The notes under the pieces were generated by a model. That model searched no databases and was not told where the DNA came from. It was given only the letters and a program-made list of their open reading frames with translations. From Alphaproteobacteria bacterium (GTDB lineage: Bacteria; Pseudomonadota; Alphaproteobacteria; Sphingomonadales; Kordiimonadaceae), in contig JABXIS010000017.1 in the NCBI GenBank assembly GCA_013372975.1, positions 1 to 64,000 on the forward strand: 64,000 nucleotides of DNA, read 5' to 3'. Below are positions 30,168 through 53,053 of this stretch, piece after piece (position 1 is the stretch's first letter; every line of letters begins with the position of its first letter). Position numbers and translations under genes: made by a program.

Positions 30168-30187
30168 CATTTTCGCCAGCATCTCAT

Positions 30188-30532: not shown

Positions 30533-30573
30533 TGTATCCTCCCCACACTAACTACCTAGGTTTAGCGCAATCG

Positions 30574-30590: not shown

Positions 30591-30634
30591 GACAGTTTCA
30601 AAGGGCAGCTAGCAGGCACTTGATGTCGACAAGC

Positions 30635-31519: not shown

Positions 31520-31617
31520 GGCTGTAGCCTCCTGATGAATCTGTTGATCCATCTCAGGCTATTGGCTTCTGCCAACGCAGTCTTTCCTCACAAAGAGGGA
31601 TTGATGCAATTAATGGT

Positions 31618-32415: not shown

Positions 32416-32540
32416 CGACGACCCCACTCATCATCGGCCTTCTACTAAAGGCTTTATCTCCTAAGTAGCACCGCACAACTCATAATCAACAATAATCGGG
32501 CTTTGATGGTTTTTCACAAGGCCAGCCAGCATATCCAACA

Positions 32541-32566
32541 AAAAGGCGCCTCGGAGGGCGCCTTTT
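32541..32566 (-). terminator. Intrinsic terminator of deoC-ALDH operon
   Basis: Arms AAAAGGCGCC (32541-32550) and GGCGCCTTTT (32557-32566) enclose 6 bases. On the minus strand T's follow the stem, 28 bases past the dehydrogenase stop. Confidence 0.8.
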
Positions 32567-32593
32567 CACAAACCTTCAACGTACGGTGGGCCC

Positions 32594-35002: not shown

Positions 35003-35012
35003 GATAATCCCC

Positions 35013-35969
35013 CTAGCCCATTGCGTGACGATAAGACGTCGAATAGCCACCAAAGGCATGATATTCGAGCTGACGTTCCAAGTCACCCAGCAGGCTTGAT
35101 GCGCCAAACCGGAACAACTCTGGTGACAACCAATCGCGGCCCAGCTCTTCCTTGATCAGTGTCAGGTACGCCACTGCATCCTTGGCGGTTTTGATGCCGC
35201 CTGCAGGCTTGTAGCCCACCTTGATGCCCGTACGGGCATGGAAGTCACGGATTTCGCGGATCATCACAAGGCTTACAGGCAGTGTGGCATTCACGCCTTC
35301 CATGCCCGTGGATGTTTTGATGAAATCTGATCCTGCCATCATGGCTGTCATCGAGGCCTTGGCCACCTGTGTCAGGTTGCCGTGCTCGCCCGTGGCCAGA
35401 ATGGTCTTCATAAGGGCACTACCACATGCGCCCTTGAATGCCCTTACCTCGTCGTAAAGCGCCTGCCAGTTGCCCGTCAGAACATGCGCGCGCGTCACAA
35501 CGATATCGATTTCATTGGCGCCGGCTTCGACAGAACGGCGGATTTCCTCAAGTCTGGTCTCCATGGGGGCAAGGCCCGCGGGGAACCCGGTCGACACCGC
35601 CGCAATGGGTACGGCGCCCTGAAGGGCACTATCGGCCTCGGGCACCATGGAATGATAAACACATACGGCGCCTGTGGTGAGGCCCATATCTTCCATGCCG
35701 AACGCCGAGAGGATATCCCGGCGCACGGGGTTCTTTGCTTTCTGACAAAGCCTCTGCACACGCCCCGGGGTGTCGTCACCCGCCAATGTTGTCAGGTCAA
35801 TGCAGCTTATGGCTTTCAGCATAAAAGCGATCTGGCTGTCTTTTTTTACAGCCCGGCGTCCGCCTATAGAGGCGGTACGGCGCTCTACCGCACTTTTGTT
35901 GACACGGATACCATCCAGCCAGTCGGCGTGGAAGCTCGTGCCCTGATTAACAAGTGGCTCAGGTGTCAT
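35013..35969 (-). CDS. deoC: Deoxyribose-phosphate aldolase
   Basis: This 318-aa enzyme splits 2-deoxyribose 5-phosphate into acetaldehyde and glyceraldehyde 3-phosphate. The Schiff-base lysine is in SDFIKTSTGM and the second conserved lysine in VGYKPAGGIK. EIDIVVTRAHVLTGNW supplies another conserved segment. It is longer than E. coli DeoC (259 aa) by an N-terminal extension of about 50 residues, as in many eukaryotic-like forms. It is the first gene of the deoC-ALDH pair, with a RutR-like palindrome about 45 bases upstream. Confidence 0.95.
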   Translation of the reverse strand: MTPEPLVNQGTSFHADWLDGIRVNKSAVERRTASIGGRRAVKKDSQIAFMLKAISCIDLTTLAGDDTPGRVQRLCQKAKNPVRRDILSAFGMEDMGLTTGAVCVYHSMVPEADSALQGAVPIAAVSTGFPAGLAPMETRLEEIRRSVEAGANEIDIVVTRAHVLTGNWQALYDEVRAFKGACGSALMKTILATGEHGNLTQVAKASMTAMMAGSDFIKTSTGMEGVNATLPVSLVMIREIRDFHARTGIKVGYKPAGGIKTAKDAVAYLTLIKEELGRDWLSPELFRFGASSLLGDLERQLEYHAFGGYSTSYRHAMG

Positions 35970-36013
35970 GATACGTCCCGATTTATTTTAAACCGTGCCC
36001 TTAAAGCCAAATC

Positions 36014-36036
36014 CTGACCCTGCGGTCAAGATTTGT
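36014..36036. promoter_or_regulatory. RutR-like palindrome upstream of deoC
   Basis: CTGACC (36014-36019), CTGC, GGTCAAG (36024-36030) contains a perfect TGACC/GGTCA repeat. On the minus strand it reads CTTGACC-N4-GGTCAGGATTTGG, the same 13-base tail as the 19158 site. It lies between the NCS2 permease stop and the deoC start. Confidence 0.7.
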
Positions 36037-36039
36037 TTT

Positions 36040-37641
36040 CTATTCAGCCGGTTTATTTCTGATAAAGCCGGCGAAATATAACATAATTGCCGCAATCAGG
36101 TAACCTGTTGCCAGCCGATGCGGCAAAGTCTCAAGCCCACCCATTTCCGGAATCGCCCACGGCAAATACATAGCCGACGATGCCAGGACAGAGTGGATCA
36201 CACCAAACTCGGTGAAGATGGCGGCAGCAAACGCCGCAAGGGCCGCGCGGGTCATTTTTCGATCAATGATCCATACGATCAGCGCACCCCAGATCAGGCT
36301 TGTCAGAATATAACCCCGCGCCATGGCACCCAGCAGCAAATAGCCCTGTGTCCAATCGTTTGAGATAGCATTGCCCGCCACCTCGCTAACACGGAAATAC
36401 AGATCGGATACCTTTGTGTGTGCATAGTTCAGAATAGCCGGAACCGTTGCGAACAACAGCGCTGGTGCGTGGCGTACATCGCCACCCGAGAAAGCCAGCC
36501 GCAAAATATCGCACGCCACCACAACCAGGATTGGCTTCAACACCGCTTCAGGGATCATCTGGGATGCCAGCGCGATCACGCCTAGGAAACCGCCGACGGT
36601 GATAACAGCGGCCGCCCCCAGGGCATAGCCGGTACGTGCGCCCATGCGTTTGTAGGTGGCGTGACCAAAGTAAGGCGTGGTTTGTACGACACCGCCAAAC
36701 AAGGCGCTGATGGCTGTCGCAGCCGCATCCAGGCGCACTACTTTACCGGCGTCAAACTCATCCCCGGTGATGCGCGCACCCGCTGTTACATTCACAGCAC
36801 TTGCCGCAATCAGAAGGGCGAATGGCAGTATAATACCCAGATAGTTTTTCGCTTCGTCAAACATGGCCAGCGGGCCAGCCAGTGTGGGCGTTGGCAAGGC
36901 AGGCGCCAATGCCGGCATCCCCTTGACAATATAACCATCCCCCGCACCCGCAAACGCGAGAACATAATAAAGGAAGGTGCCCGCAACAATCGCTAGGATC
37001 GCACCGGGCATATTGAATGGCAGGCGGTGCCCGGCAATCAGGGCAAAGCCCATAATAACAAGGGAGACGATGCCAACCTCCGGCAGGACAAACACGCCAT
37101 AAATGGCTTCCGCACCCAGCCATACGGTAGCAATACCGGCCATCGCCCCAACAAGCGCCATTTGTGGCAATTGATGCTGCATGGCGCGACCAAAGAAAGA
37201 AAGCCCGAACTTGATCACAGCCATCCACATTGTGCAGGCCATACCCATGATCCAGGCTTTGTCTGCGGCACCATCAACTCCCAAAGCCTCAACGTTGCTT
37301 GCGTAGGTAGGGCCAATAATGAAGAAACACATGCCGAATACCGTCGGCAAATCCATACCCAGCGGTATGCTTGTGAGTGCCTCGTTTCCTGTTTCCTCTC
37401 GGGTTTTCTTGGTCAGCCAGAAGAAGGCCAGGTTGCCAATAAGGATGCCTGCAATAGCGCCCGGAATAATCTTGCCAAACATATGCTCTGCCGGAAATCC
37501 AAACGCTCCCATCAGCACACTGGCCAGCACAAACATATTGACCACAACATCAAGGAAAAATGCCACACCGGCATTTGTATCCGCCGCAAGCTGTGACGAC
37601 GGCGCAGCCACCCCCGCCAGCATTTTGTTTGTTTCAGCCAT
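36040..37641 (-). CDS. NCS2-family nucleobase permease (AzgA-like)
   Basis: This 533-aa protein has about 12-14 membrane segments. Features of the NCS2/solute carrier 23 group include GNEALTSIPLGMDLPTVFG near the start, the AASAVNVTAGARITGDEF segment and FGGVVQTTPYFGHATYK. The latter resembles the AzgA/purine permease motif. It probably imports a purine or related base by proton symport. It is 64 bases downstream of the adenosine deaminase gene, on the same strand, which suggests uptake of hypoxanthine or other bases made outside. Exact substrate is uncertain. Confidence 0.8.
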   Translation of the reverse strand: MAETNKMLAGVAAPSSQLAADTNAGVAFFLDVVVNMFVLASVLMGAFGFPAEHMFGKIIPGAIAGILIGNLAFFWLTKKTREETGNEALTSIPLGMDLPTVFGMCFFIIGPTYASNVEALGVDGAADKAWIMGMACTMWMAVIKFGLSFFGRAMQHQLPQMALVGAMAGIATVWLGAEAIYGVFVLPEVGIVSLVIMGFALIAGHRLPFNMPGAILAIVAGTFLYYVLAFAGAGDGYIVKGMPALAPALPTPTLAGPLAMFDEAKNYLGIILPFALLIAASAVNVTAGARITGDEFDAGKVVRLDAAATAISALFGGVVQTTPYFGHATYKRMGARTGYALGAAAVITVGGFLGVIALASQMIPEAVLKPILVVVACDILRLAFSGGDVRHAPALLFATVPAILNYAHTKVSDLYFRVSEVAGNAISNDWTQGYLLLGAMARGYILTSLIWGALIVWIIDRKMTRAALAAFAAAIFTEFGVIHSVLASSAMYLPWAIPEMGGLETLPHRLATGYLIAAIMLYFAGFIRNKPAE

Positions 37642-37705
37642 AAGCCCCCTACTTCCCTTCCAAACTATACAATTGGGCCATCTGGCCCGCCCTCTTTACC
37701 GAGGC

Positions 37706-39289
37706 TTAATGAAATGATGTGCGTTTCCGTTCCGGGATTCGCTGTTCGTCTTCAAAGACCCTGAACCGTTCCTCCAGCTCCCACTGCAGCCGGGCCTTCT
37801 CACTTGTTTTCAAAAATGCAGCGCATTCTGCCCCGGCATCTGTACCCTGTTCCACATCTTTTTTGCATGCCGCATTTTCCCACAGGCTTGCGCCGTCAAG
37901 GAAACTATAGGTTAGCGCATTGCGCGAACTGTAACGCAGCTCGAAATAGGGTGCACGATGCTCTTCATAGAAACGCATATATTCGTGGGTCAGATCGATG
38001 CGGGACACACCTTCATCGTCTGTCGACAAGGCAAAGGGCACCTCAACGTCGCGGTAAACGCCAACAGGATGCTTCCTGCCCTTGATGCCCAATATGGTGT
38101 CGTTGCTGGTGAGATTGATCTCGACCATAATCTTGTCACGGGCCATCCGCGTCAACAGCTCTTCGGCGCCATCTTCATACATGATGGCAACGCCATGTCC
38201 GATACGCTTGGCGTGCCCAAGATCGATCGCTTCGCGGATATGAAACGTTAGGAATTCTGGTGGCACCAGTCCAATCGCAAGCTCGCCCGCATGCAGCGCC
38301 ACGTTTCTTGGTCCTTCGTTGCGATAAAGGTGATCAATCATCCGCATATGAAGCGTATAGTCCCTCAGCGAAACATGCCTGTCTTCGGGCGCCACCAAAT
38401 TGGTGCCCACCATCAGCGGCTCCTGTTCCATCAGGGCCCATCCAAGGATGAACTGGCCATACACCATGGCGGGCTCCATCTCGCGGATCACCTGATGGAG
38501 AAAACGAATGGTCACCCCACATCCAGCATCGGCCTCGGGCGTGCCGCACTTCAGAATTTCGTCCTTGCGAGCCATACCGGCCTTGAGCTGGCTTCGCGCA
38601 GAAGCCAAAAGCGTCGGCATCGCCGCGCCAAAATCACCAGACATCAGCATCTGATAGTCCGCCGCCAAATCACCCGACAATTTCACATCCCCTAGAAGAG
38701 GGAAAAGTTCCGGGAAAATGAGCGTGATCATAGGCTCCAGATACAGGATATTCTGATGCCCTGCCCGAGACGCAATTTCCGCAAATTGATCCCCCCAGCG
38801 CCTGGGGGAATTGGATATTCTGGCAAAGGTCGCGAAAAAATCATTGTGCCCAGACCAGTCCAGCGTTGGCACATAGGATCGGTTCGACAGGGCATCAATC
38901 AGTTGACGCCTGTGATCACTATTGGCCTGCGCCTCAGCAGCCGTCACCCAACCTGATGCAGCACAGCTTTCCTTCACCTTGTGCCGAAGGCCTGGCACTG
39001 ACATGTCTGCGCACAGGCCATCCTCTGCCGCCCACTTGAGCCAGCTTTCCGCATAAACAGCGCCCCGCAGATGAGTATGAATATCGCCGCCCTTGGGAAA
39101 AGCCTGCATATAGGGGCGCAGGCGACCATTCTCGGCCGACCAGGCCAGCGCAGAATCCGCAAGCCGGGCTTTCATTGCACGCTGATCATCAGCTTGTGCA
39201 CTTATGCCCCCTCCTGCCGAGAGCATCGCGGCCAGCCCCAGAATACAGGCAGCCTTCGGCATCCTGACGCCTTGCCAAAGCTTTTTCAT
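37706..39289 (-). CDS. Exported adenosine deaminase
   Basis: This 527-aa amidohydrolase has the full adenosine deaminase set: GDIHTHLRG with the HxH metal pair (about 65-67), VALHAGEL with the catalytic glutamate, AKRIGHGVAI and FALSTDDEGVS with the metal aspartates. A signal peptide is clear (GLAAMLSAGGGISAQA, cleavage near residue 33), so it acts outside the cytoplasm; typical bacterial Add is cytoplasmic and about 330 aa. The length and signal recall the secreted ADGF group. It would turn adenosine into inosine before import. GGAGGAAA lies 4 bases before the start. It is divergent from tdk. Confidence 0.9.
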   Translation of the reverse strand: MKKLWQGVRMPKAACILGLAAMLSAGGGISAQADDQRAMKARLADSALAWSAENGRLRPYMQAFPKGGDIHTHLRGAVYAESWLKWAAEDGLCADMSVPGLRHKVKESCAASGWVTAAEAQANSDHRRQLIDALSNRSYVPTLDWSGHNDFFATFARISNSPRRWGDQFAEIASRAGHQNILYLEPMITLIFPELFPLLGDVKLSGDLAADYQMLMSGDFGAAMPTLLASARSQLKAGMARKDEILKCGTPEADAGCGVTIRFLHQVIREMEPAMVYGQFILGWALMEQEPLMVGTNLVAPEDRHVSLRDYTLHMRMIDHLYRNEGPRNVALHAGELAIGLVPPEFLTFHIREAIDLGHAKRIGHGVAIMYEDGAEELLTRMARDKIMVEINLTSNDTILGIKGRKHPVGVYRDVEVPFALSTDDEGVSRIDLTHEYMRFYEEHRAPYFELRYSSRNALTYSFLDGASLWENAACKKDVEQGTDAGAECAAFLKTSEKARLQWELEERFRVFEDEQRIPERKRTSFH

Positions 39290-39387
39290 AATTTTCCTCC
39301 CAGGGGCTTGCCCTCGCCTGATCAACTGCCTAGGCTCCGGACAAAACATTAGCCCAATAAGGGCAAAGAACATAGGGCATACCGGCA

Positions 39388-39987
39388 ATGGCCAAGCTGT
39401 ATTTTTACTATTCCGCCATGAATGCGGGCAAAAGCACCACTCTCCTGCAATCAAGCTTCAACTACCGTGAGCGAGGCATGAACACCATGCTCTTCACGGC
39501 TGCAATTGATGATCGTTTTGGGGAAGCGGTGATAGCGTCCCGCATCGGCCTGAAGGCAGATGCTTGCATATTCGATGCAAATCTTGACCTTTTTGTCAAG
39601 ATCACGAATGAACTGAACCAGCGCCCCCTGCATTGCATATTGGTCGATGAAGCCCAGTTCCTGACCAAAGACCAGGTATTTCAACTGGCCGCAGTCGCTG
39701 ACAGACTGCGCATTCCGGTATTGTGTTACGGTATCCGCACAGACTTTCAGGCGAATCTGTTCGAAGGCAGCCAGTGGTTGCTGGCAATTGCCGATGAACT
39801 GCACGAACTCAAAACCATCTGCAAATGTGGATCAAAAGCCACCATGAATATGCGCGTGGATGAAAAGGGAAATCCGGTCAAGGAAGGGGCATCGATCGAA
39901 ATCGGCGGCAACGACCGATATATCGCGCTTTGCCGCAAACACTTCCATGAAAAACTGCGCGGACCGTCAATGGATACTGACCAATAG
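39388..39987 (+). CDS. tdk: Thymidine kinase
   Basis: This 199-aa type II thymidine kinase has the P-loop [12 protein letters not shown] (about 8-19), the Walker B-like ILVDEAQFL (about 85-93) and the lid zinc ligands in [11 protein letters not shown] and ALCRKHFHE. It phosphorylates thymidine and deoxyuridine for DNA synthesis. The Shine-Dalgarno is weak. It is divergent from the adenosine deaminase gene, with 98 bases between them. A perfect 8-6-8 inverted repeat resembling the RutR-like sites lies inside the gene at 39581-39602. Confidence 0.95.
39581..39602. promoter_or_regulatory. RutR-like palindrome inside tdk
   Basis: Arms ATCTTGAC (39581-39588) and GTCAAGAT (39595-39602) enclose six bases. 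The core TTGACCTTTTTGTCAA differs from TTGACC-N4-GGTCAA at one base. It falls within tdk codons; RutR in E. coli is known to bind inside genes. Confidence 0.45.
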
Positions 39988-40356: not shown

Positions 40357-43242
40357 ATGAAAAAGTCTCTAACTACACCCCGGAAGCTTCAGTTGCTCAC
40401 AAGCGCTGCAGTTGCCGCGGTATCTTTCGCAACCCCAACAATGGCACAGGATTCTTCCGCGATGGAAATCGAGGAAGTGGTCGTTACGGGTTCCCGTATT
40501 CGCCAAAACCCGCTTGAGGCACAAAATCCGGTACAGATCTTGTCGGCTGCCGACATGGATGCGTCCGGTCAAGTCTCTGTTGCAGACTTCCTGCAGCGCC
40601 TGCCAATTGCAGGTTCGGCCATTAACCGCACCAACAACTCTTCCGGTAACCTTGGCTTCCCGCCAGATGGTTCCGGTATCGGTGCAGGCGCCAGCCAGAT
40701 CGACCTGCGTTATCTGACGTCCACGCGCGTACTTGTGCTGGTGGATGGCAAACGCTGGATTCGCGGCTCCTCCGCATCTGGTGTGTCCGGCGCAGTTGAC
40801 CTGAACACCATTCCATCAGGCATCATCAAATCCATCGAAGTTCTGCAAGACGGCGCATCCACCATTTATGGTTCCGATGCAATTGCAGGCGTTGTGAACA
40901 TCAAAACGCGCGACGACTATGAAGGCTTCAATGCAAGCGCTTACTATGGCCAGTTCGACGAAGGTGATGGCGAGACACAAGAATATGACGTTTCATGGGG
41001 TGCCAGCACCGACCGGACCCGTGTTATCCTTGATGTAAGCTATACCAAGCAAGGTTCTGTTGAAGCTGCTGACCGCGAACTGACAGCTTATGCGCTGCCG
41101 TTCGAGAACCTGGGTGCATCTTCTGGTACACCACAGGGCCGCTTCGTGTTCAACAATGATTTCGGCAGCATCACGCCAAACAATGGCGCCCCTGCTATCC
41201 CGAATTTTGATCCAGCTGACCCAACCGGGCCAAACTCGGATTACCACGCATTTACCCTGCAGGACCGCTTCAACTATTCGCCTTACAACAAGGTGATGAC
41301 GCCAAACGAGCGGGTGAATATCTTTGCCAAGGCAGAATTTGATGTAACAGAGTCTATCAAATTCCGTACCACTGCGGCCTTCAACAACCGCAGCAGCGTA
41401 AGCCAAGCAGCACCAGAGCCATTGTTCTTTGGTACTGACGCGGGCGCAGGCATCTGGATGGACAATATCGTTGTTCCTGAAGATCACCCATACAACCCGT
41501 TTGGTATCGAGCTGAACCCGACCACGTTTGCGTTCGGCGGCCGCCGTCCGATTGAGGCTGGCCCTCGTATCTTCACTCAGAATGTTGACACCTGGTATGT
41601 GTCCGGCACGCTTGAAGGTGACTTCGAGATGGGTGACCGCAACTGGTACTGGGATATCAACGGTACTTGGTCACAAAGCCAGGCCAACCAGATCAAAAAC
41701 GGTGCCTTCAACGCACGCAAGATCAGCGAAGCCCTTGGCGACCCTGATGCATGTGCGGCAATTCCGGGCTGCGTTCCTTTGAACATCTTTGGTGGTCAGG
41801 GCCCAGACGGTAATGGCACAATCACTCAGGCCATGCTCGACTATATCACCTTCACACAGAAGGATGAGAGCCGTCAGAAACTGTTTGATATCTCTGCCAA
41901 CCTTGCCGGTGAGATCATCGACCTGCCAGCTGGCCCGCTGGGCGTAGCCATGGGTTGGGAATATCGCGAGGAAGAAGGTCGCTTTACACCTGATCCTGTA
42001 GTAGCAGCTGAAGAAACTGCTGGTATTGTTGCCCGCCCAACAGCAGGCCGCATCCATGTGAAAGAGTTCTACGGCGAGGTCAATGCACCATTGCTGGCGG
42101 ATCAGGACTTTGCGAAGCACCTGGGCCTCAGCGCAGCTGTTCGCTATTCTGACTATAGCACATCCGGCAGCAACACTGTCTTCAAGATCGGTGCCGCGTG
42201 GCAGGTTAATGACGACCTGACATTCCGCGCCAACTGGTCTGAAGGTTTCCGGGCACCTCACATTGGTGAACTGTTCAACTCTGGCTCGTTCTTCGACAGC
42301 ACGATCAGTGATCCATGTAACTCCGGTGGCGGCAACACACCTCATGCAAACTGTTCTGCGCTTGGCGTGCCAGCTGATCTGGTACAGATCAACCCGCAGA
42401 TCCGTGTTGCGACAGGTGGTAACCGCAACCTCAAACCAGAGACCGCAGAAACCTGGACGGCTGGTTTCACTTTCAGCCCGTCTGCCATGGCTGACTCCAT
42501 GGGCCTCGACACCCTCACTTTTGAAATGAACTATTACAACATTTCAATGCAGGACGTGATCAAGGCACCAAACGCGTCGGAGCTTCTGAACGGCTGTGTA
42601 AGCACGCTTGATGACATCTTCTGTGATGCCATTACCCGTTCTGCCAACGGTCAGGTTACCCTGATCTCTGGTCTCCTAACCAATATCGCGGCGATCGAAA
42701 CCGATGGCCTCGACTGGTCGATCAGTGCACAGACTGCGGCTGCCGACTGGGGCCAACTGCGCTTCAAATGGGTAAACAGCCACCTGTTCAGCTTCGATGA
42801 AGGTACACTCAACACAGAGGGTACAATCGACTTCGTGGAGCGTGCCGGTACTGAACTCGGCTCGCCAGAGCGTGCCTACGTCAAGTTCAAGTCTTCCTTC
42901 TTTGTAGACTGGATGCTGGACGAATGGACCGTTGGTGCCACCTTCCGTTACATCGGCAGCGTGGATGAAGCCTGTGGCGGCGTGATTGGTGACTTTGGCT
43001 TCACTCAGTATTGTACCAATGGAGCCGACGGCAACACCCTTGGCAGCACCTTCTACACCGACATGCAGTTCACATATCGTCCTTCCTATCTGGACGACAA
43101 TGTGTCCTTCACGCTCGGCGTGCAGAACCTGTTTAAGGAAGATCCACCACTTTGCACCACCTGTGACCTCAACAACTTTGACGGCACAGTGCATGCAACA
43201 CCTGGTCGCTTCATCTACGGTAAAGTTACCTTCAAGATGTAA
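40357..43242 (+). CDS. TonB-dependent receptor
   Basis: This 961-aa outer-membrane receptor has a signal peptide ending TMAQ (about residue 31). The plug domain begins [10 protein letters not shown] and contains [10 protein letters not shown] and [13 protein letters not shown] 22-strand barrel follows and ends in GKVTFKM. The N-terminal half of the barrel and [18 protein letters not shown] are typical of large alphaproteobacterial receptors. The weak RutR-like site upstream and the neighbouring tdk and adenosine deaminase suggest nucleoside or nucleotide uptake, but receptors of this type also take sugars and peptides. It is followed by a strong hairpin. Confidence 0.88.
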
Positions 43243-43266: not shown

Positions 43267-43296
43267 AGGCGCCATCCCAAGGGGTGGCGCCTTTCT
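43267..43296. terminator. Intrinsic terminator between TonB receptor and binding-protein genes
   Basis: Arms AGGCGCCATCCC (43267-43278) and GGGGTGGCGCCT (43281-43292) pair with one wobble; TTTCTT follows. It lies between convergent genes. Confidence 0.7.
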
Positions 43297-43316: not shown

Positions 43317-44120
43317 TTATTTACCGATATCAGCAGGCACATCCACACCAACGACACGGGTATGTTTTCCCATGATGGCCTTGAGGCGCCCGTCGTCGCG
43401 CATGGCAAGGATACTCCGGTCAATATCCTTCATAAGCGCTTCGGTTTTACGATCACGACGGCACAATAAATGGCCGGTTGATCCGAAGATCGGCTGGTCA
43501 ATCGCCAAACTGGGTTCCTCATAGCCCAGCTTTTCGAAAAGGATATAAGCGTCGGGAACCCAACTCCAGATCGCATCCACCCGGCCAGACATCAACAAAC
43601 GAATACCGCTCTCTTCCGATTCTACGCGGAGTACATCAGCCTCAGGGTTTGGCATGAACAGCTCGAACGGAACCCCAACCCACACAGCCAGCCGTTTGCC
43701 TTTCAGGCCGTTCACCCCCGCAATCGCAGGTGTGCCGGGCCGCGTTACAATATGTGCGGTTATGTAATCAATCGGCACGCTCTCTACCACATCAGCCTGT
43801 TCGATATGCGGAAAGTTCATTTTTACAACAGGAAAGGAGACCGGCACCATACATTGAACATAGCCGTCATCAAATTGCTTCAACATGCGCTTAACCGGCA
43901 TTGTCACAAGCTGCGTGGGAACCTCGGTTTCCAACAACAACGCGCGCACCAGATCGGCATAGTGGCCCGTTGCATCTTTCTCGAAACGGCCTTCTTTCAG
44001 GAAGCCTGCAACCTTCACATATCCACGTTCCTCCGCCATCGCCGAGCCAGCACCAGGCCACAGAAACATTCCTACTACAGCCAGAAGGCTGCATTTTATA
44101 CGATGGGTAGATCCAAGCAC
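43317..44120 (-). CDS. Orphan periplasmic solute-binding protein (paralogue 1)
   Basis: This 267-aa exported protein belongs to the family 3 (amino-acid type) solute-binding fold. A signal peptide ends at about GSAMA (residue 29). MSGRVDAIWSWVPDAYIL and HLLCRRD are shared with the next gene. Two cysteines (C90 and C210) are 120 residues apart, as in its three paralogues. No permease or ATPase lies nearby. The start is probably GTG 44120 (AGGA 7 bases upstream); TTG 44123 is possible. It is the last gene of the binding-protein/TonB cluster, 61 bases after paralogue 2. Ligand unknown. Confidence 0.75.
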   Translation of the reverse strand: MLGSTHRIKCSLLAVVGMFLWPGAGSAMAEERGYVKVAGFLKEGRFEKDATGHYADLVRALLLETEVPTQLVTMPVKRMLKQFDDGYVQCMVPVSFPVVKMNFPHIEQADVVESVPIDYITAHIVTRPGTPAIAGVNGLKGKRLAVWVGVPFELFMPNPEADVLRVESEESGIRLLMSGRVDAIWSWVPDAYILFEKLGYEEPSLAIDQPIFGSTGHLLCRRDRKTEALMKDIDRSILAMRDDGRLKAIMGKHTRVVGVDVPADIGK

Positions 44121-44181
44121 CAATTGGTCCTGTTTGTGAAAACCGCGAAAGTCCTGACCATAAACCCCAATGGTTTACAGG

Positions 44182-44970
44182 CTATTGATTTTCCACGACG
44201 CTGAGGGGAATGTCGACACCTACCACACGCGTATGCCTGCCTAGAATTTTCTTGAGCCTACCGTCTGCGCGCATGGATCGGATTATTGGATCGACTTGCT
44301 TCATCAGCGCTTCTGTAGTTGGTGTGCGACGGCACAGGAAATGCGCCGCAGACCCATAAATCGGCTGATTGTCGTCAATATTGGGCACACCATATCCCAG
44401 CCGTTCATAAAGGATGTAGGCGTCCGGCACCCAGGTCCAGATGGCATCAACACGCCCTGACATCAAAAGTTTGATGCTACTTTCCTCGGATTCAGCCCTG
44501 ATTACCTCGACATCAATATCGGTCAGGTGAGTGTCCACCGGCAGCGCAACCCAAACGGCCATCCGCATCCCGTTTAATTCCTCAAGTCTGGTAATAACAG
44601 GCATACCTGCGCGGGTCGCGATGTGAGCGGAGATATAATCGATGGGTTCGCTTTCGATGATATCTTCGCGATTCAAGTTCGGAAACTTGACCTTCCAGCG
44701 CTCAAAAGCGGCGGGCACCATACAGATAGAATCGCCCTCTGCAAAGCTTCGTACTGTCCTGAGAACCGGCATGATAACGAACCTTGCGCCCACCGTCGCC
44801 TCTGCAAGCACAGCATGCACCATGTCGGCATAATGGCCGGTCCCATCCTGCTCAAGCCGACCCTCTTTGGTGAATCCTGCGATGACCACAGGCTCATGCT
44901 CAAGCGTGTCGGCGTATGACGCGACAGAGAGGCATTGAAACATAAACAACAAACTCAGAAACTTGTTCAA
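44182..44970 (-). CDS. Orphan periplasmic solute-binding protein (paralogue 2)
   Basis: This 262-aa protein is the closest relative of paralogue 1, sharing EGR...GTGHYADMV, SEPIDYISAHIATR and MSGRVDAIWTWVPDAYILYERLGY. Its signal peptide runs to about YADT (residue 22). The conserved cysteines are C83 and C203. The start codon is a TTG at 44970, with GGAGG 4 bases upstream; the gene begins 11 bases after the TonB receptor stop, so the two are likely co-transcribed. The ligand is unknown; the fold suggests a small amino-acid-like or organic solute. Confidence 0.78.
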   Translation of the reverse strand: MNKFLSLLFMFQCLSVASYADTLEHEPVVIAGFTKEGRLEQDGTGHYADMVHAVLAEATVGARFVIMPVLRTVRSFAEGDSICMVPAAFERWKVKFPNLNREDIIESEPIDYISAHIATRAGMPVITRLEELNGMRMAVWVALPVDTHLTDIDVEVIRAESEESSIKLLMSGRVDAIWTWVPDAYILYERLGYGVPNIDDNQPIYGSAAHFLCRRTPTTEALMKQVDPIIRSMRADGRLKKILGRHTRVVGVDIPLSVVENQ

Positions 44971-44981
44971 GAGGCCTCCGC

Positions 44982-47180
44982 TCAGAAAGTCCGCCCGACG
45001 GCAATATACCAGGTACGAGGTTCACCATAGAAGCCTGTTTGCGCATTGCCAAGTGTGCGGAATTCAAAGGCATCGACCTGATAGATCGCATCAAACAGGT
45101 TCTTTACCCCGGCTCGGGCATACCATGTTTCATCCGCATCCACCCAGCGTGCATGGGCACCCACGAGCGCATAGCCGTCCTCATACAGGAATTCCGAATT
45201 GTCGACGCTTGTGTAGTACGCCCCCACATAACGAACATCAGCCGATAAACCGACAATACCATTGGCATCCAAGTCTACCTCATACAATATGCCGCCACTC
45301 AAGGTCACATCCGGCGCCCGGATCGGCTCTTGGTCAGTTCTGTCTCTCTGATCGTCGAGAAACTCCTTATAACTGGCGCTCAAAAGGCCAACGTTTGCCC
45401 AGAGGGTCAAGGCATCCATTTCTGCTTTCACCTCAAATTCTGCACCATATATTTCGAGCTTGGCGGCATTGATCGTTGGAAAGTTGAAACCGGCCGCCTG
45501 ATCATCCCGGTCAATCGCCACGGCAACACGGGCCTGATAGTTGGTATAATCGTTAAAGAAGCCGGTAATCCCGTATGTGACACGGCCATCCATCACCCGA
45601 CCCTTCAGCCCAGCCTCATATGACCAGACATATTCAGGTTCAAACGGCTCGGCGTCTGCCGCGGAAAACATGCGCCCATTGAAGCCGCCAGACCGGAACC
45701 CTCGGGCAATCCGGGCATAGATGTGGCTGGTCTCGCTCAGGCGAAAATCCAGCGTGCCGCTGGGGGTAAAGGCAGACCATTTACCACTGCCTTCAAATTC
45801 GAACACGCCCGTAATCACTCCACCTGTCGTGGTTTCACTGACCCTCTCGAAATCCTTGTCATCCTGCGACCAGCGCGCGCCCAGTGACAAGGTTGTTCGT
45901 TCACCCAGTTCAATATTCGCATGGCCAAACAAGGCAATATTCTTCACTTTCTGAGTGTCGTGTCCCGGTTGGGTGAAACCGACCTGTTCACCTGCTGCCA
46001 GAATATACCCATTGAGGAAGGATTCCTGAACCGCCACGCTTTTTTCGGTCATGAAAAACGCACCAAAAATAGCGTCCCAATGAGCACCTTCAGTTGACAA
46101 CTGCAGTTCCTCGCTCATCTGTTCATGAACCCACGTGGCCCAAACATCGCCAATCTCGAATTCACTGCCATCGGCATCAAGCCACTGAACCGGGTTCATA
46201 TGTCGGTAGGATGTGATGGATGTCAGCTTGGAATTCTCCGAAAGGTCCCACTCTGCAGTGAAAGACAATCCCCAATGAGTGTTGCTCTGGCCATTGTCCG
46301 GATCGATTGAGCTTGCCATGGTTTTCCCGTCGAACGGCCCCGGCGCATCCCGCACAACAGTGGGGCCATTAACAAGATCAACCACAAACAGATGGCTTTC
46401 TGCCCGCCCCAAATATTGCCCCACATCAATGTCCATCAGGTCTGCCGCAAACGTGAGGGTGAGGGAATCGCTGGGCCTCGTGGCCAGCTTTATCCGGCCT
46501 GAGAAAACATTGTCGTCGTGATATTCGGTGCCATTGAAGGCATCGGTATAATAGCCGTCCCGGTTGACATAACGAGCGGCAAGGCTGATGGCCGAGGCAT
46601 CCCCAACAGGGAAAGCGCCATAGAACGACCCGCTTTTCAGGTCGTAGGCGCCATATTCGATCTCGGCCCTGCCACCGGCCTCGAACGGGTCACGCGTGAC
46701 AATATTAACCGCACCACCAATGGTATTCTTACCATATAGCGTGCCCTGTGGCCCGCGCAGCACCTCAATGCGTTCCACATCAAACAGCCGCATCATGGAC
46801 CCTTGCATACGGGAATAATAAACCCCGTCCACATACATGCCCACGCCCTGCTCGAAGGTCTGCAAGCTGTCGCGCTGGCCAATACCGCGTATGAAAATGG
46901 AGGCGGCGTTTGATTGGGCGCTGCCGGCCACAATAGTCAAATTGGGGGCAAAACCACTGATATCCGAAAGCCCGCTTGCGCCTAAATCTTCCAGCGCTTC
47001 TTGGCTTAAGGCCGTGATAGCAGCAGGAATATCTGTCAGGCTTTCCTCGCGCTTACGCGCTGTGACGATGATTTCTTCGGGCGTGTTAGCGGCTTCTTCG
47101 GCCAATGCCGCAATACTGCCACCCGCAGGCACCCCCATTAAAACTGCACTCCCGAGCAAAAGATTGCAGCTTCTTTTCAT
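44982..47180 (-). CDS. TonB-dependent receptor within the binding-protein cluster
   Basis: This 732-aa receptor has a signal peptide ending near ALAEE (about 27). The plug starts EEIIVTARKREESLTDIPA and contains GVGMYVDGVYYSR and VEVLRGPQGTLYGKNTIGG (with an I in the first position). The barrel ends YIAVGRTF with a terminal Phe. The TARKREESLTDIP form is common to receptors of unknown small-molecule ligands in Alphaproteobacteria, often siderophore-like or aromatic. It is 8 bases after paralogue 3 and 11 bases before paralogue 2, so it is inside one transcription unit with periplasmic binding proteins. Confidence 0.9.
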   Translation of the reverse strand: MKRSCNLLLGSAVLMGVPAGGSIAALAEEAANTPEEIIVTARKREESLTDIPAAITALSQEALEDLGASGLSDISGFAPNLTIVAGSAQSNAASIFIRGIGQRDSLQTFEQGVGMYVDGVYYSRMQGSMMRLFDVERIEVLRGPQGTLYGKNTIGGAVNIVTRDPFEAGGRAEIEYGAYDLKSGSFYGAFPVGDASAISLAARYVNRDGYYTDAFNGTEYHDDNVFSGRIKLATRPSDSLTLTFAADLMDIDVGQYLGRAESHLFVVDLVNGPTVVRDAPGPFDGKTMASSIDPDNGQSNTHWGLSFTAEWDLSENSKLTSITSYRHMNPVQWLDADGSEFEIGDVWATWVHEQMSEELQLSTEGAHWDAIFGAFFMTEKSVAVQESFLNGYILAAGEQVGFTQPGHDTQKVKNIALFGHANIELGERTTLSLGARWSQDDKDFERVSETTTGGVITGVFEFEGSGKWSAFTPSGTLDFRLSETSHIYARIARGFRSGGFNGRMFSAADAEPFEPEYVWSYEAGLKGRVMDGRVTYGITGFFNDYTNYQARVAVAIDRDDQAAGFNFPTINAAKLEIYGAEFEVKAEMDALTLWANVGLLSASYKEFLDDQRDRTDQEPIRAPDVTLSGGILYEVDLDANGIVGLSADVRYVGAYYTSVDNSEFLYEDGYALVGAHARWVDADETWYARAGVKNLFDAIYQVDAFEFRTLGNAQTGFYGEPRTWYIAVGRTF

Positions 47181-47188
47181 AAAATCCC

Positions 47189-47971
47189 CTATTCCTTTTC
47201 AAGCCTTGCAAAGGGCCCCAACATTTCCTTGAGCTGGCCTGTTCGGCGCGCAATGGCGATCCTGCCATTGATCAGGTTCAGCAATCGCTCGGCACCGATG
47301 CCCTTTTTGCACACAAAATGTGTGGTCGTCTGGAACAGTATGAAATCAGGGTTAAAATCCGGTAACTCGATACCATATTTTGTGGCAATGATCAGCGCAT
47401 CAGGATTCCAGCCATACATGCCATCTATTCTACCGGCCTGAAGCATCTTCAGAGCCGTTTGATCATCAGGAGTTCGGATGATGTCAAATCGGTCGTAATC
47501 ATCCTTCAGGACAACCATTTCAACGCCGCGCTGGATCGCGATGGTACGTCCATAAATGTCAGTCTTGTCAGCAATGAACGGCCCACCTGGTTTGACCATC
47601 ACGTGGGAGCTTACGAAATCGACAAAACTGCTTTCGACCAGGTCTTCGGCAGGAATGCCAATCAAATTTTGAGCCGCCCGTGCTGACGCCGGGAACAGGC
47701 AGCTGCGCTTGGTATCCTCAAATTGCCTGAGCGCCCGCACCAGAGGGTATCGTTGGAATACCGCCACACTCTGATCAATAGGCAGCAGATATTTGACTAA
47801 TCTATTATACCCACTTGCCGGATCATTATCCAAACGCCCCTCGAGGTGGGCTCCGATAATAGCAATGGGCGCCTGCCCTGCTTCATCGTCTGCCAAAACG
47901 GCAGGCAGCCATCCAGCCAGCGCCCAGGCGGTCCCTACTAAAAGGGATATATATATACCACGAAGCGTCAT
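47189..47971 (-). CDS. Orphan periplasmic solute-binding protein (paralogue 3)
   Basis: This 260-aa protein resembles paralogue 4 most: EGRLDNDPASGYNRLVKYLLP and RALRQFEDTKRSCLFP match it closely. A signal peptide ends at about AVLAD (residue 28). The cysteines are C91 and C211. It directly precedes the TonB receptor gene with 8 bases between. TTGACA at 48024-48019 (minus strand) could be a -35 for a promoter in the 128-base gap upstream. Substrate unknown. Confidence 0.77.
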   Translation of the reverse strand: MTLRGIYISLLVGTAWALAGWLPAVLADDEAGQAPIAIIGAHLEGRLDNDPASGYNRLVKYLLPIDQSVAVFQRYPLVRALRQFEDTKRSCLFPASARAAQNLIGIPAEDLVESSFVDFVSSHVMVKPGGPFIADKTDIYGRTIAIQRGVEMVVLKDDYDRFDIIRTPDDQTALKMLQAGRIDGMYGWNPDALIIATKYGIELPDFNPDFILFQTTTHFVCKKGIGAERLLNLINGRIAIARRTGQLKEMLGPFARLEKE

Positions 47972-48099
47972 TCCATCCGCATCTCAGGAAACGTGAGATG
48001 GCTTCTCCATCAGGGCTTTGTCAAATACACGTACACTAAAGTCCATGGCCCAGAGTGACGGCTTTCATGAAGGAAGGCAAGATATGTGCAATAATTCAG

Positions 48100-48879
48100 T
48101 TAACGTCGGTGAGGGACAATTCGAGAAAATTCACCCAGCATAGCCTTCAAGGCACCTGTCTGCTTGAGGTTGTTGGTGCGGGAATTAAACACTTGCATCA
48201 AATATTCAACGCCGGGTTCGTTTCTGCAAACCAGATGTGTGTCAGAGCTGTAGAGCGAGAAATTCTCGTCAAAGCGCGGCAGGGGCATGCCTTCCGCTTT
48301 CGCCAGGATAAGGCTGTCGGGAAACCAGCCATAGCCAGCATCAACCCGCCCCGCCATCACCATACGAAGCGCTGTTACCTCGTCGGGTGTTCGAACAATT
48401 TCGTAACCCCAATCGGGCGAAACAAACTGCGAAATCAGAACACTGGTCTGGACCGCAAGCTTCATACCCCGGAGTTGCTCAAACGAAGAAACCTTTGGCA
48501 CACCTTCGCGGGTGATAATATGGGATCCAACTGTATCCACAGGCACGCTGGAAACCATGTCATCTGCAGACATATCAACGATCACGCGAAGGATATCTTC
48601 CGATGTCGGGAAAAGGCAGGACCTTGGCGTTCGCTCGAACATGCGCAATGCGCGCCTCAGAGGTAACCGCTGGAAAACAACCCTATCTTCATTATTGGGC
48701 AAAGCAGCCGCCAATAGCTGCCTGTATCCGCTATTGGGGTCCTCATTCAGTCGGGCCTCCAGATTGGCGCCAATCACCAAAAACGGATCGGACGGTTTTT
48801 CAAACCCTCCCGCCCATGCCGCCTGCACTGCCACAAAAGATAAACAGGCCGCAGAAGCAGCCTGTTTCAGGGACGTCAT
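48100..48879 (-). CDS. Orphan periplasmic solute-binding protein (paralogue 4)
   Basis: This 259-aa protein starts with a signal peptide (MTSLKQAASAACLSFVAVQA, cleavage near AWA) if the ATG at 48879 is used; longer in-frame starts would put hydrophilic residues in front and spoil the signal. The paralogue motifs are RALRMFERTPRSCLFP, SSVPVDTVGSHIITR, MAGRVDAGYGWFPDSLIL and THLVCRN. The cysteines are C88 and C208. It lies 82 bases after the aldehyde dehydrogenase stop and 128 bases before paralogue 3. No transporter genes are adjacent, so it may deliver ligand to a distant permease or to a sensor. Confidence 0.75.
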   Translation of the reverse strand: MTSLKQAASAACLSFVAVQAAWAGGFEKPSDPFLVIGANLEARLNEDPNSGYRQLLAAALPNNEDRVVFQRLPLRRALRMFERTPRSCLFPTSEDILRVIVDMSADDMVSSVPVDTVGSHIITREGVPKVSSFEQLRGMKLAVQTSVLISQFVSPDWGYEIVRTPDEVTALRMVMAGRVDAGYGWFPDSLILAKAEGMPLPRFDENFSLYSSDTHLVCRNEPGVEYLMQVFNSRTNNLKQTGALKAMLGEFSRIVPHRR

Positions 48880-48961: not shown

Positions 48962-50389
48962 CTAGTTATTGTGCCCAAGGATAGATTTCACTTCGAGGAA
49001 ATCAGCAAAGGCATGGTCGCCCCACTCGCGGCCATTGCCTGATTGTTTGTACCCGCCGAAGGGCGCGGAAAGATCACCTGATGCGCCGTTTATATAAACC
49101 ATACCGGTCCGAAGCCGGGACGCCACACGGCGGGCACGATCCGTGTCAGCAGACTGCACGGCACCAGAAAGGCCATAGGGGCTATCGTTCGCAATGCGAA
49201 TTGCCTCTTCCTCATCTTCATATCCGATGATCGACAGCACAGGGCCAAACACTTCTTCCTTTGCGATCATCATATCTGGTTTTACGTCGGCAAATACAGT
49301 CGGTTTCACGAAGAACCCTTCCTCGCAGCCATCAGGTGCTCCCGGCCCGCCAATCACCAGGCGGGCACCTTCGTCGATGGCTTCCTGCATCATAACCTGC
49401 ACCTTGCCATATTGATCCTGATGGGCGATTGGCCCCATTGTAGTCTCTTCCTTCTGCGGATCACCGGTTACCACGCTGGACGCAGCCTGAAGCGCGATTG
49501 CTGCGGCCTCATCCATCCGGCCATGCGGCACCAGCATGCGGCTGAGAAGCGTGCAGGTTTGCCCGGTATTCCGCATGGCAGAGAGCGTCTCCCGTGCGAC
49601 CACTGCTTCCAGATCTGCGTCGTCCAAAATAATATTCGCCGACTTGCCACCTAGCTCCTGGGTCACCCGCTTGATGGTTGGGGCGGATGCTGCCTGTACC
49701 GCAGCACCCATGCGGGTAGAGCCGGTCACGGACATCATATCAATGCCCGGATGCGCGGACATTGCTTCGCCAACAGTAGGGCCTTCACCGTATACCATGT
49801 TGTATATGCCCCCAGGCACACCCGCAGCCTCCATGATTTCAGTGAACAGCTGTGCGCTATATGGCGCTACCTCACTGGGTTTCAGTACCATGGTACATCC
49901 TGTCGCAATGGCAGGTGCCACCTTGCAGGCAATCTGGTTGATCGGCCAGTTCCAGGGCGTGATCATACCAACAACACCGATAGGTTCTTTTGCAATGCGG
50001 GTTGGACCACGGTCTTCAAAAAACTTGTAGTTCTTCAGCGCTTCTGTGGCAGAAGCCAGGTGCCCAAGCCCAGATGGCGCGTGCGCCCGTTCTGCCAGCG
50101 TTTTCGGTGCACCCATTTCCAGCGTGATCACCTCGGCCATCTCGGCCATACGCTTCTGATACTCGGCAATGATGGACTGGAGCAGCTCAAGCCGCTCTTC
50201 CCTTGTGGAGAAAGCAAACGTTTCAAAGGCCTTGCGCGCGGATGCCACCGCCTTGTCGACGTCTGCGCCCGTGCCAAGCACCATCTCGCCAGACTTTTTT
50301 CCCGTCGCCGGGTTCAGCAAATCACGCGTTTGAAACTCGGAAGGGTCAACCCATTTGCCATCAATATAGTGCTTATAAAGCTGCCGCAT
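48962..50389 (-). CDS. Aldehyde dehydrogenase (NAD(P)-dependent)
   Basis: This 475-aa protein has the standard ALDH fold. The NAD region is TPWNWPINQIACKVAPAIA, the catalytic glutamate is in ELGGKSANIIL and the catalytic cysteine in NTGQTCTLLSRML. The final FGGYKQSGNGREWG is typical. It oxidises an aldehyde to the acid. It is the last gene of a minus-strand operon after the alpha/beta hydrolase and SDR genes, which suggests it finishes the breakdown of an ester-derived alcohol. The start at 50389 is chosen for a GGAG 7 bases upstream. Confidence 0.9.
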   Translation of the reverse strand: MRQLYKHYIDGKWVDPSEFQTRDLLNPATGKKSGEMVLGTGADVDKAVASARKAFETFAFSTREERLELLQSIIAEYQKRMAEMAEVITLEMGAPKTLAERAHAPSGLGHLASATEALKNYKFFEDRGPTRIAKEPIGVVGMITPWNWPINQIACKVAPAIATGCTMVLKPSEVAPYSAQLFTEIMEAAGVPGGIYNMVYGEGPTVGEAMSAHPGIDMMSVTGSTRMGAAVQAASAPTIKRVTQELGGKSANIILDDADLEAVVARETLSAMRNTGQTCTLLSRMLVPHGRMDEAAAIALQAASSVVTGDPQKEETTMGPIAHQDQYGKVQVMMQEAIDEGARLVIGGPGAPDGCEEGFFVKPTVFADVKPDMMIAKEEVFGPVLSIIGYEDEEEAIRIANDSPYGLSGAVQSADTDRARRVASRLRTGMVYINGASGDLSAPFGGYKQSGNGREWGDHAFADFLEVKSILGHNN

Positions 50390-50468
50390 CCTGCGTCTCC
50401 TGAAATAACCGAAATGATGAGTTTGAGTTGATAGATGGGATGTCGGTGCAGGCATGCAACCCCTGCTA

Positions 50469-51299
50469 TCAGAAAATGCCCTGCCGCTCCCAAGAGCCGA
50501 GTTTTTTCAGGAACATTTTGCGCCATATATTTGGAACCCACCTTTGCAATCTGTCCGCAGATCTGGCGTCAGGCCCAACCAATATCCTGTATGATCCCTT
50601 TTCTACGCCCGCTAAGATAATCTCCGCTGCTGCCGTAGGTGAAGTAACAGCCATTGTGTGAAAATTCTTCTGAACCTCGTCAGAATTCAGGGAGCCCTGC
50701 GTGTTATGCAAATGTTTGCCCGAGCGTACGATATTTGTATCTACCCCGCCTGGGTGCACCGAATGTATTTGCACGCCCGTGCCATCCAGTTCGTAAAAAA
50801 GGCTTTCGTTAAATCCCTTTACCGCATGTTTGGCCGCACAATAGGCCGACTGGCTGGGCACACCGACAAGGCCAAACAGGCTGGAGATATTTACAATATG
50901 CCCCTGCCCCCGCTCAAGCATGCCCGGCAGTACGGCTTTGGTGCCATAAACAACGCCGTAGAAATTGATATTCATGACCCACTCAAGATCGTCATAGGTC
51001 ATTTTCTCGACAGTGTCCGACAATGAAACACCAGCGTTGTTGAACATGGCATCAATGCCACCCAGTTTCGCTTCGGCATCTCTGACCGCTGCCTCAACGG
51101 CCGCGCGATCCGATACGTCCGCTACAGCGGAATGCACATTCACCTGCGCTGCTCTCAGTTCATCAACCGCGCCCTGCAATGCGTCAGCATTCACATCTGT
51201 CAGGTAGAGCCCACACCCTTTTGCCGCCAGCGCTTTCGCAAGCGCGTTACCGATACCGGAAGCCGCGCCGGTAATAAAGGCGGTTTCAAGTTTGGTCAT
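50469..51299 (-). CDS. Short-chain dehydrogenase/reductase
   Basis: This 276-aa SDR carries the cofactor motif TGAASGIG (residues 10-17), NNAG, the catalytic serine in NISSLFGLVG and YCAAK. It oxidises or reduces a hydroxyl/carbonyl group with NAD(P). Its ATG overlaps the stop of the upstream hydrolase (ATGA), and 79 bases separate it from the aldehyde dehydrogenase gene. A role between ester hydrolysis and aldehyde oxidation is plausible. Substrate unknown. Confidence 0.88.
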   Translation of the reverse strand: MTKLETAFITGAASGIGNALAKALAAKGCGLYLTDVNADALQGAVDELRAAQVNVHSAVADVSDRAAVEAAVRDAEAKLGGIDAMFNNAGVSLSDTVEKMTYDDLEWVMNINFYGVVYGTKAVLPGMLERGQGHIVNISSLFGLVGVPSQSAYCAAKHAVKGFNESLFYELDGTGVQIHSVHPGGVDTNIVRSGKHLHNTQGSLNSDEVQKNFHTMAVTSPTAAAEIILAGVEKGSYRILVGPDARSADRLQRWVPNIWRKMFLKKLGSWERQGIF

Positions 51300-52213
51300 T
51301 TTCCATTCCCCCAATGCTGTTCAAAAAAGGCAGCCATCTGCTCGATTGCCTTCTTGCCTTCAGGCACGATCCCTGCGCTCATATGCCAGACATGATGCAT
51401 CTTTGGCCAAACGTCGAGCTGTATCTCGCCGCCAGCTGCCCGTACCTTTTCTGCCAAACGGACACTGTCAGAAAGCAATATTTCCTCAGATCCAACCTGC
51501 GCCAAAATGGGTGGCATACCATCATGGTCACCAAACAATGGTGAACAACGCGGATCGTCGGCAGGCATATCGCCCCGATATAGCTTTCCCGCAACGGCAA
51601 TACCATCCGCTTCAAGCATGACTTCCTTATGTTTGTTTGTCTCGATACTGGCGCCAGAACCAGATACATCCAGCCACGGAGAAATCAGCCCAACAGCCAC
51701 AGGCTGCACCTGTTCTGCTTCCTTCAGAAGCAATGTTGAAGCCAGCGCCAGGCCACCGCCCGCACTATCTCCGCACAAACCAATTTTTGCCTGAGGATAC
51801 GCATTCCTTATAAAGGCGTATGCCGCCAACGCATCGTCGACCGCCGCAGGGCACTTGTGTTTTGGCGCCAACCGGTAATCCAGCAAAAAAACCCGCGCCT
51901 TCAGGGCCCGCGAAAGTCTAGCCCCTAAATCATGATAATTTTTTGGACTACCCCAAACATACCCGCCACCATGGCTATAAAGCAGAATCCGATCATCGCG
52001 AGCACCTGGAACAAAAATCCAGTCCCCGCGCACGCCATTGTCGTTCACAGTTTCTACCGTTGCGTCTGCAGGCGCGCCAGGCAATCGGTCTTCCATGGCC
52101 GTCAGGGTTCTATCGAAGTGGCGAAGGCGGTCTTCTTCCGATCCCGATCGTGATTGCTTCGGCCGAAAAGCGGCCCTTATCTTTCGGCGAACTAGCCATG
52201 CCTGTACAGACAT
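51296..52213 (-). CDS. Alpha/beta hydrolase of the hormone-sensitive lipase family
   Basis: This 305-aa protein has HGGGYVWG for the oxyanion hole (about 80-87), the nucleophile motif GDSAGGGLALA (about 148-158), the acid residue region and the catalytic histidine in MHHVWHMSAG. This is the bacterial family IV (HSL) esterase arrangement, acting on short or medium chain esters. The start at 52213 is chosen for AAGGGGGAT just upstream; a longer frame would add 25 unrelated residues. It is the first gene of the operon and is divergent from the TetR regulator. Confidence 0.9.
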   Translation of the reverse strand: MSVQAWLVRRKIRAAFRPKQSRSGSEEDRLRHFDRTLTAMEDRLPGAPADATVETVNDNGVRGDWIFVPGARDDRILLYSHGGGYVWGSPKNYHDLGARLSRALKARVFLLDYRLAPKHKCPAAVDDALAAYAFIRNAYPQAKIGLCGDSAGGGLALASTLLLKEAEQVQPVAVGLISPWLDVSGSGASIETNKHKEVMLEADGIAVAGKLYRGDMPADDPRCSPLFGDHDGMPPILAQVGSEEILLSDSVRLAEKVRAAGGEIQLDVWPKMHHVWHMSAGIVPEGKKAIEQMAAFFEQHWGNGK

Positions 52214-52357
52214 ATATCCCCCTTTTCTGGTTTGCCAACAGTCAGGCCTCCCAGACCAACTGCCGATCAGGGCTAATATTAATGCCATTCATTACATAGT
52301 CAATGCGACACATGCGGCTCCAATTTCCAACAAACGTTCAATTAATTCACTTGCGCC

Positions 52358-52378
52358 GATTAATGATCTTCATTAATC
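52358..52378. promoter_or_regulatory. 9-3-9 palindrome, likely TetR operator
   Basis: GATTAATGA (52358-52366), TCT, TCATTAATC (52370-52378) is a perfect inverted repeat 36 bases before the TetR start and in the divergent gap to the hydrolase operon. Position and size fit a TetR operator. Confidence 0.6.
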
Positions 52379-52414: not shown

Positions 52415-53053
52415 GTGAACAGCCAGATTGAAAAAGGCCAGCCAGATGGCAAGGCTAAACGCGCTGACGCGACACGTGCGGCGCTCATAAAGGCTGCTGA
52501 GCGGCTAATCGCGGAGAAGGGACTGGCCGCCGTCTCCACCAGAGAAATACTGCAAGAGGCAAACCAACGCAACCAATCTGCGCTGCAGTATCATTTTGGA
52601 TCAAAAGACGGCCTGATGCGCGCCACGATCAGCGAACGCACCAAACAAATCGACGAGCGCAGGCTGGAGTTAATGAAGGACTGGACGGAAACGTCCAACA
52701 TGGACGAAGTACTGAAGGTATTGGTATTGCCGCTTGCCGAACTTGCTGAGCAGGAAATTGGTGGCAGGCATTATATTCTTTTCCTCTGCCAAGCCATCAC
52801 CCAACCGGATTGGGACCTGAGGCAGGCGATCAAGGATTTCGAACTAACCGGCCTTGGTCGCGCTTACGAAATCTACGATGAACTGTTGGCTGATTTGCCG
52901 GAAGAGGCCCGTGTGGTGCGGCAGGAAATCGCCTATGACGTAGCCATTCTGGCTCTCAAACGCTGGTGTATCCGCGAAATGGATCTTACACCAAAACAGA
53001 TCACAAAGCTGATCATTCATGCTGCAAAAGCAATTCTGGAGCCGCCGAAATAA
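52415..53053 (+). CDS. TetR/AcrR-family regulator
   Basis: This 212-aa protein has an N-terminal TetR helix-turn-helix: AALIKAAERLIAEKGLAAVS, then REILQEANQRNQSALQYHFGSKDGL with the usual Y-F/H-F-GSK pattern. The start is a GTG at 52415, with AGGAG 7 bases upstream. It is divergent from the hydrolase-SDR-ALDH operon, and the 52358 palindrome lies between, so it probably represses that operon and itself. It meets the EAL gene convergently 5 bases apart. Ligand unknown. Confidence 0.88.
   Translation: MNSQIEKGQPDGKAKRADATRAALIKAAERLIAEKGLAAVSTREILQEANQRNQSALQYHFGSKDGLMRATISERTKQIDERRLELMKDWTETSNMDEVLKVLVLPLAELAEQEIGGRHYILFLCQAITQPDWDLRQAIKDFELTGLGRAYEIYDELLADLPEEARVVRQEIAYDVAILALKRWCIREMDLTPKQITKLIIHAAKAILEPPK

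Follow-up and report, generated by a model that had tools for sequence, protein, structure and literature searches.

Binding proteins of family 3 have a textbook role that is tied to an ABC permease. The locus described here raises the question of what such proteins do where four of them are encoded around a single TonB-dependent receptor, and where no matching transporter was found. The original prediction for this locus proposed that they carry the receptor's ligand through the periplasm, serve a distant transporter or present the ligand to a sensor.

Gene organization and neighbouring genes

In the window, i.e. the whole stretch of 64,000 nucleotides that was analysed, the genes for four exported solute-binding proteins (SBPs) with a family 3 fold and one TonB-dependent receptor lie together on the minus strand. 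In the order of transcription these are SBP4 (48100-48879, 259 aa), SBP3 (47189-47971, 260 aa), the receptor (44982-47180, 732 aa), SBP2 (44182-44970, 262 aa) and SBP1 (43317-44123, 268 aa), separated by gaps of 128, 8, 11 and 58 bases, with one pair of binding proteins on each side of the receptor. For SBP4 the ATG was taken as the start; the list of open reading frames opens the same frame at a TTG, at 48978. These coordinates bear out the predicted single-strand arrangement with spacings of mostly 8-130 bases. The predicted pairing is equally clear, SBP1 and its sister SBP2 sharing 52% identity and SBP3 and SBP4 41-43%, compared with about 27-31% between the pairs. As had also been stated, there is no permease or ATPase gene within the cluster, and none directly adjoins it.

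All four binding proteins carry Sec-type export signals, with cleavage sites read by eye as AMA/EER, SYA/DTL, VLA/DDE and AWA/GGF, and inspection of the sequences revealed no lipobox in any of them. The receptor domains scored far above the cut-off (Plug, PF07715, 73.8 bits; barrel, PF00593, 137.8 bits), and the protein contains a TonB-box-like motif, EEIIVTA. The domain search detected only the plug and the barrel, and the receptor thus differs from FecA-type TonB-dependent transducers, which have an N-terminal STN signalling domain. The gene for another TonB receptor, which belongs to a different subgroup, lies on the plus strand (40357-43242) and converges on SBP1, with 74 bases between the two ends. 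The intervening sequence includes a terminator-like hairpin (43267-43292), identified by consensus match only. Another hairpin, of 11 pairs and with a T-rich tail, is found inside the start of the SBP4 coding region (48842-48867, minus strand), and may be due to chance, since hairpins were found less frequently than in shuffled sequences.

Upstream of SBP4, after a gap of 82 bases, three genes run in the same direction, encoding an aldehyde dehydrogenase (48962-50455, minus strand), a short-chain dehydrogenase/reductase (SDR; 50469-51314, minus strand) and a hormone-sensitive-lipase-type esterase (Abhydrolase_3; 51296-52288, minus strand), the last being the probable first gene of the operon. 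A TetR-family regulator is encoded divergently (52415-53053, plus strand). Between the regulator and the esterase lies a perfect 9-3-9 palindrome, GATTAATGA-AGA-TCATTAATC (52358-52378). No second site with fewer than three mismatches occurs in the genome, the expectation for the window being 0.04, and the palindrome is the probable TetR operator. Judged from this arrangement, the genes from 52288 to 43317 likely form one TetR-controlled operon. Because the receptor and its binding proteins are probably co-transcribed with the esterase, SDR and aldehyde dehydrogenase genes, the ligand in the window genome may be of the ester or alcohol type. An Abhydrolase_3 gene also adjoins receptor relatives in three further genomes (G011, G024 and G037; 34% identity), and another alpha/beta hydrolase accompanies a receptor relative (40%) in G027, which hints at ester-like substrates. 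Esterases and aldehyde dehydrogenases are common genes, however, and their proximity to the receptors may therefore be fortuitous. The receptor relative of G027 (L118, 5725-13995) is surrounded by genes for an ornithine-cyclodeaminase-like protein, the alpha/beta hydrolase, an FAD oxidoreductase and a chemoreceptor, with no binding protein.

Further features of the window were recorded. The ABC importer encoded within it (23239-27880) is a system of its own, of the Bmp/PnrA type, and forms part of a nucleoside uptake and salvage region (20252-39987) with DeoC, adenosine deaminase and a thymidine-kinase-like gene, in which some genes were named by eye from the sequence. Genes for a LuxI-type autoinducer synthase (30635-31552) and a LuxR-type regulator (31618-32427), both on the minus strand, represent a probable quorum-sensing pair. 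The plus strand encodes a tricorn-type protease (7076-10378) that combines a PD40 propeller with an S41 peptidase domain, as well as a protein in which a GH114-like domain is joined to RTX calcium-binding repeats (61223-63100).

Fold and ligand site of the binding proteins

The family 3 label given to the four proteins by the original prediction is correct at the level of the fold, and did not hold at the Pfam gathering cut-off. SBP1 was weakly recognized by the SBP_bac_3 model (PF00497; 21.4 bits, cut-off 26.4), and the Pfam search gave no match to this model for SBP2, SBP3 and SBP4. Structure models were built from the four sequences, and the AlphaFold2 model of SBP2 (mean pLDDT 72.8) matched family 3 proteins with a Foldseek E of 2e-11, its best fold match being SBD1 of GlnPQ (VIA Z 16.6 over 207 residues). 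The model of SBP4 was of low confidence (pLDDT 63.6). The assignment at the fold level is based on the SBP2 model and on a profile of the four proteins, which matched amino-acid-binding proteins in the PDB. In a tree of 76 binding proteins from the window genome and its relatives, the four formed one clade (100/96) consisting of the two pairs. Local duplication is the most likely origin of the set, rather than assembly from the many other binding proteins of the genome.

In family 3 proteins, an Asp and an Arg residue hold the alpha-amino acid, as seen in the HisJ/LAO structures. The receptor-linked proteins do not conserve this combination: in the alignment, Trp180 takes the place of the Asp of AncQR, an ancestral arginine binder, and all four proteins of the window have Trp at this position. 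Across a seven-member clade that includes three proteins of a second genus (see below), the position is occupied by Trp in six members and Phe in one, and the usual Arg position is variable. From this sequence comparison, an ordinary alpha-amino acid seems an improbable ligand.

The loss of the canonical residues would also be consistent with a function outside transport, in which the proteins act as periplasmic enzymes, chaperones or envelope proteins built on the family 3 fold. Cyclohexadienyl dehydratase is a precedent for such a function, and AncCDT-1, a precursor of this enzyme, was among the fold matches to the SBP2 model. A pair of cysteines, C83 and C213 in SBP2, which might be linked by a disulphide bond in lobe 1, points in the same direction. 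Both are present in 60 of 72 other orphan binding proteins and in all seven members of the clade, and are absent from the transporter SBP of a genome of the same family (G020), the one transporter SBP compared. Nevertheless, no catalytic motif came to light, function does not follow from a fold match, and the tight link to the TonB receptor would be left unexplained. We therefore regard a non-transport function as quite unlikely.

Search for a permease and recurrence of the module

If the binding proteins were components of classical amino-acid importers, corresponding permeases should be detectable elsewhere in the genome. The window genome (3.63 Mb in 96 contigs, rated 100% complete) gave 29 matches to SBP_bac_3 and 18 to the profile of the four proteins, which together represent about 45 distinct family-3-type loci. 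There was no match to TIGR01726, the HEQRo or amino-acid-type ABC permease model, and the four matches to BPD_transp_1 were typed as PstC, PstA, ModB and TauC/SsuC-like. TIGR01726 was likewise without a match in each of the 20 genomes of the genus (the window genome and 19 others), which contain 2-29 SBP_bac_3 matches each (2-24 in the 19 others). Orphan binding proteins are thus the rule in this genus, and are not peculiar to the cluster in the window. The search itself is effective, as it recovered a strong SBP_bac_3 match directly before permeases in G020; of 14 control genomes, 11 to 14 yielded permeases with the same models. The idea that the proteins serve a distant transporter was consequently not substantiated, since the permeases that were found serve other solutes.

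A divergent ABC importer, or an importer of another kind, could nonetheless be encoded elsewhere in the genome. The assembly is divided over 96 contigs, and a permease of strongly divergent sequence might escape detection by TIGR01726 or BPD_transp_1. The Bug proteins of Bordetella may likewise share distant membrane partners (PMC11452294). Weighed against the consistent lack of TIGR01726 matches in the genus, the other solutes served by the permeases, the similar situation in the second genus and the performance of the models in the control genomes, we consider such a hidden importer very unlikely.

This second genus, of the same family, is represented by genome G433, complete on one contig, in which three binding-protein genes and then a TonB receptor gene are lined up in the same direction (L138, from 12196 to 7289, with intervals of 111, 16 and 86 bases). 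No closer relative of the window receptor was found than that of G433 (42.5% identity), and the two are sisters in the receptor tree (SH-aLRT 99), which holds one outlier row, namely the N-terminus of the tricorn-type protease at 7076-10378. The three binding proteins of G433 and the four of the window form one clade (SH-aLRT 98.6), with about 21-28% identity between the genomes. The search for the same cluster in other genomes, which had been suggested as a check, thus yielded one such locus, and a permease beside the orthologues, which would have spoken against the prediction, was looked for and not found at the G433 locus. In this genome, BPD_transp_1 gave four matches, of which two fall within a single Phn/Fbp-like protein and the others correspond to PstC and the protein encoded next to it; no amino-acid-type ABC permease was found. 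The esterase, SDR, aldehyde dehydrogenase and TetR genes are absent from the G433 locus, which is flanked by lolA and acnB. The conserved core thus consists of the receptor and the binding proteins; the catabolic operon was rejected as a part of it, and as far as seen its genes belong to the window lineage only. The idea of an ester ligand therefore rests on one genome and on loose receptor relatives.

Within the clade, the copies of each genome group together. The copies thus expanded independently in the two lineages, unless they were homogenised by gene conversion. The original prediction had taken the four copies to suggest several related ligands; a dosage effect fits the pattern as well as such specialisation does.

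With about 45 binding-protein loci and many receptors in the genome, an occasional neighbouring pair without shared function is to be expected, and loose pairs do occur (L069, L071, L086 and L106; in L071, a large open reading frame some 2 kb from the binding protein is a TonB receptor). This does not easily account for spacings of 8 and 11 bases between co-directional genes, nor for binding proteins on both sides of the receptor. Moreover, the linkage exceeds chance because the same orthologous partners are found together in a second genus, despite divergence to 42% (receptor) and 21-28% (binding proteins). A coincidental neighbourhood is accordingly highly improbable. Among 83 binding proteins scanned with their flanks, in which TonB receptors were detected with a home-made profile, only the seven of this clade are contiguous and co-directional with a receptor. 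Class-wide (385 genomes) and order-wide (398 genomes) samples contained no further module beyond G433 at the thresholds used; these searches are samples, and the module is known from two genomes. A genome scan with SBP2 returned no relatives, and a scan with the receptor returned only gammaproteobacterial relatives of 26-28% identity, with no binding proteins nearby.

The other arrays of binding proteins in related genomes have different neighbours. Large open reading frames beside these arrays were considered as candidate receptors and, with the exception of that in L071, rejected: their products are histidine kinases, a helicase, a chemoreceptor, ValS, aconitase and an M16 peptidase. In two members of the genus, the arrays lie beside an M16 peptidase of 963-966 aa (L083, 5809-11466; L087, 5301-11000), and a link to peptides is possible.

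Some of these neighbours are relevant to the third proposal, in which binding proteins loaded with the ligand imported by the receptor would deliver it to a chemoreceptor or histidine kinase whose gene lies at another locus. In relatives, a CHASE histidine kinase is encoded close to one array (L088) and a Cache chemoreceptor close to another (L093), and the window genome itself encodes, at one of its about 45 loci, a protein in which, according to its translation, a family 3 binding domain is fused to a hybrid histidine kinase with a receiver (G000:C47, L001, 148-2397, minus strand). Sensor kinases that depend on binding proteins are known, and chemoreceptor genes are often located apart from the gene of the binding protein (PMC11113362). 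However, no sensor gene was found adjoining the module in either the window or G433, and the associations with kinases and chemoreceptors may be due to chance, since the neighbours of the other arrays vary (ValS, M16 peptidase, aconitase). A sensing role is, in our view, unlikely.

Proposed role and comparison with known systems

The conservation of the same receptor with three binding proteins in another genus suggests a real, ABC-free uptake module. Linkage and co-inheritance also lend indirect support to the original proposal that the binding proteins carry the receptor's ligand through the periplasm. The most probable reading, to which we give an even chance, is a mechanism in which the receptor imports a ligand that the binding proteins capture, hold in the periplasm and pass on by a non-ABC route. 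The receptor would draw the ligand into the periplasm at the expense of TonB energy, and the binding proteins, with their family 3 fold devoid of the usual residues for alpha-amino acids, would capture and hold it, so that uptake becomes effectively one-way. The next recipient of the ligand would be a sensor, a periplasmic enzyme or a secondary carrier. The multiplication of copies in each lineage may have served to raise their abundance or to accommodate ligands that differ slightly. For the window genome, the ligand could be an ester or alcohol-type carbon source, which would be oxidised via the alcohol and the aldehyde to the acid.

More tentatively, we propose a class of ABC-free uptake or capture modules, in which a TonB receptor works with its own family 3 binding proteins, these having a new class of ligands and a new hand-over partner, within a genus that has dozens of family 3 copies and no cognate ABC permease. 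The combination of many family 3 binding proteins without such a permease and a receptor link in two genera offers a testable case of a role without the pump. It is also a warning against annotating every family 3 binding protein as a component of an amino-acid ABC transporter.

A search of the open-access literature for orphan family 3 binding proteins that accompany a TonB receptor returned nothing relevant. With the polar amino-acid ABC importers, composed of a HisJ/GlnH-type binding protein, a HEQRo permease and an ATPase, the module has the fold and the export signal in common. It differs from them in that no HEQRo-type permease was found in the window genome, in that the site residues are not conserved, and in having the pair of cysteines, which the single transporter SBP in the comparison lacks. 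The Bug (TctC) orphans of Bordetella likewise represent a large expansion of binding proteins without nearby membrane partners, but belong to another family, of the tripartite tricarboxylate transporter type, and the accessible part of that source does not describe a TonB link (PMC11452294). Sensor kinases and chemoreceptors activated by binding proteins illustrate the use of such proteins beyond transport (PMC11113362), and differ from the module, which has no sensor gene beside it in the window or G433. By analogy, the best precedent is the MbnT/MbnE system of methanobactin users, in which a TonB-dependent outer-membrane transporter is likewise paired with a periplasmic binding protein, and in which the route across the inner membrane is unknown (PMC7558416). 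No methanobactin genes were seen among the neighbours that were annotated. MbnE is a relative of OppA/AppA with copper-methanobactin as its ligand, whereas the module described here employs the family 3 fold, in three to four copies.
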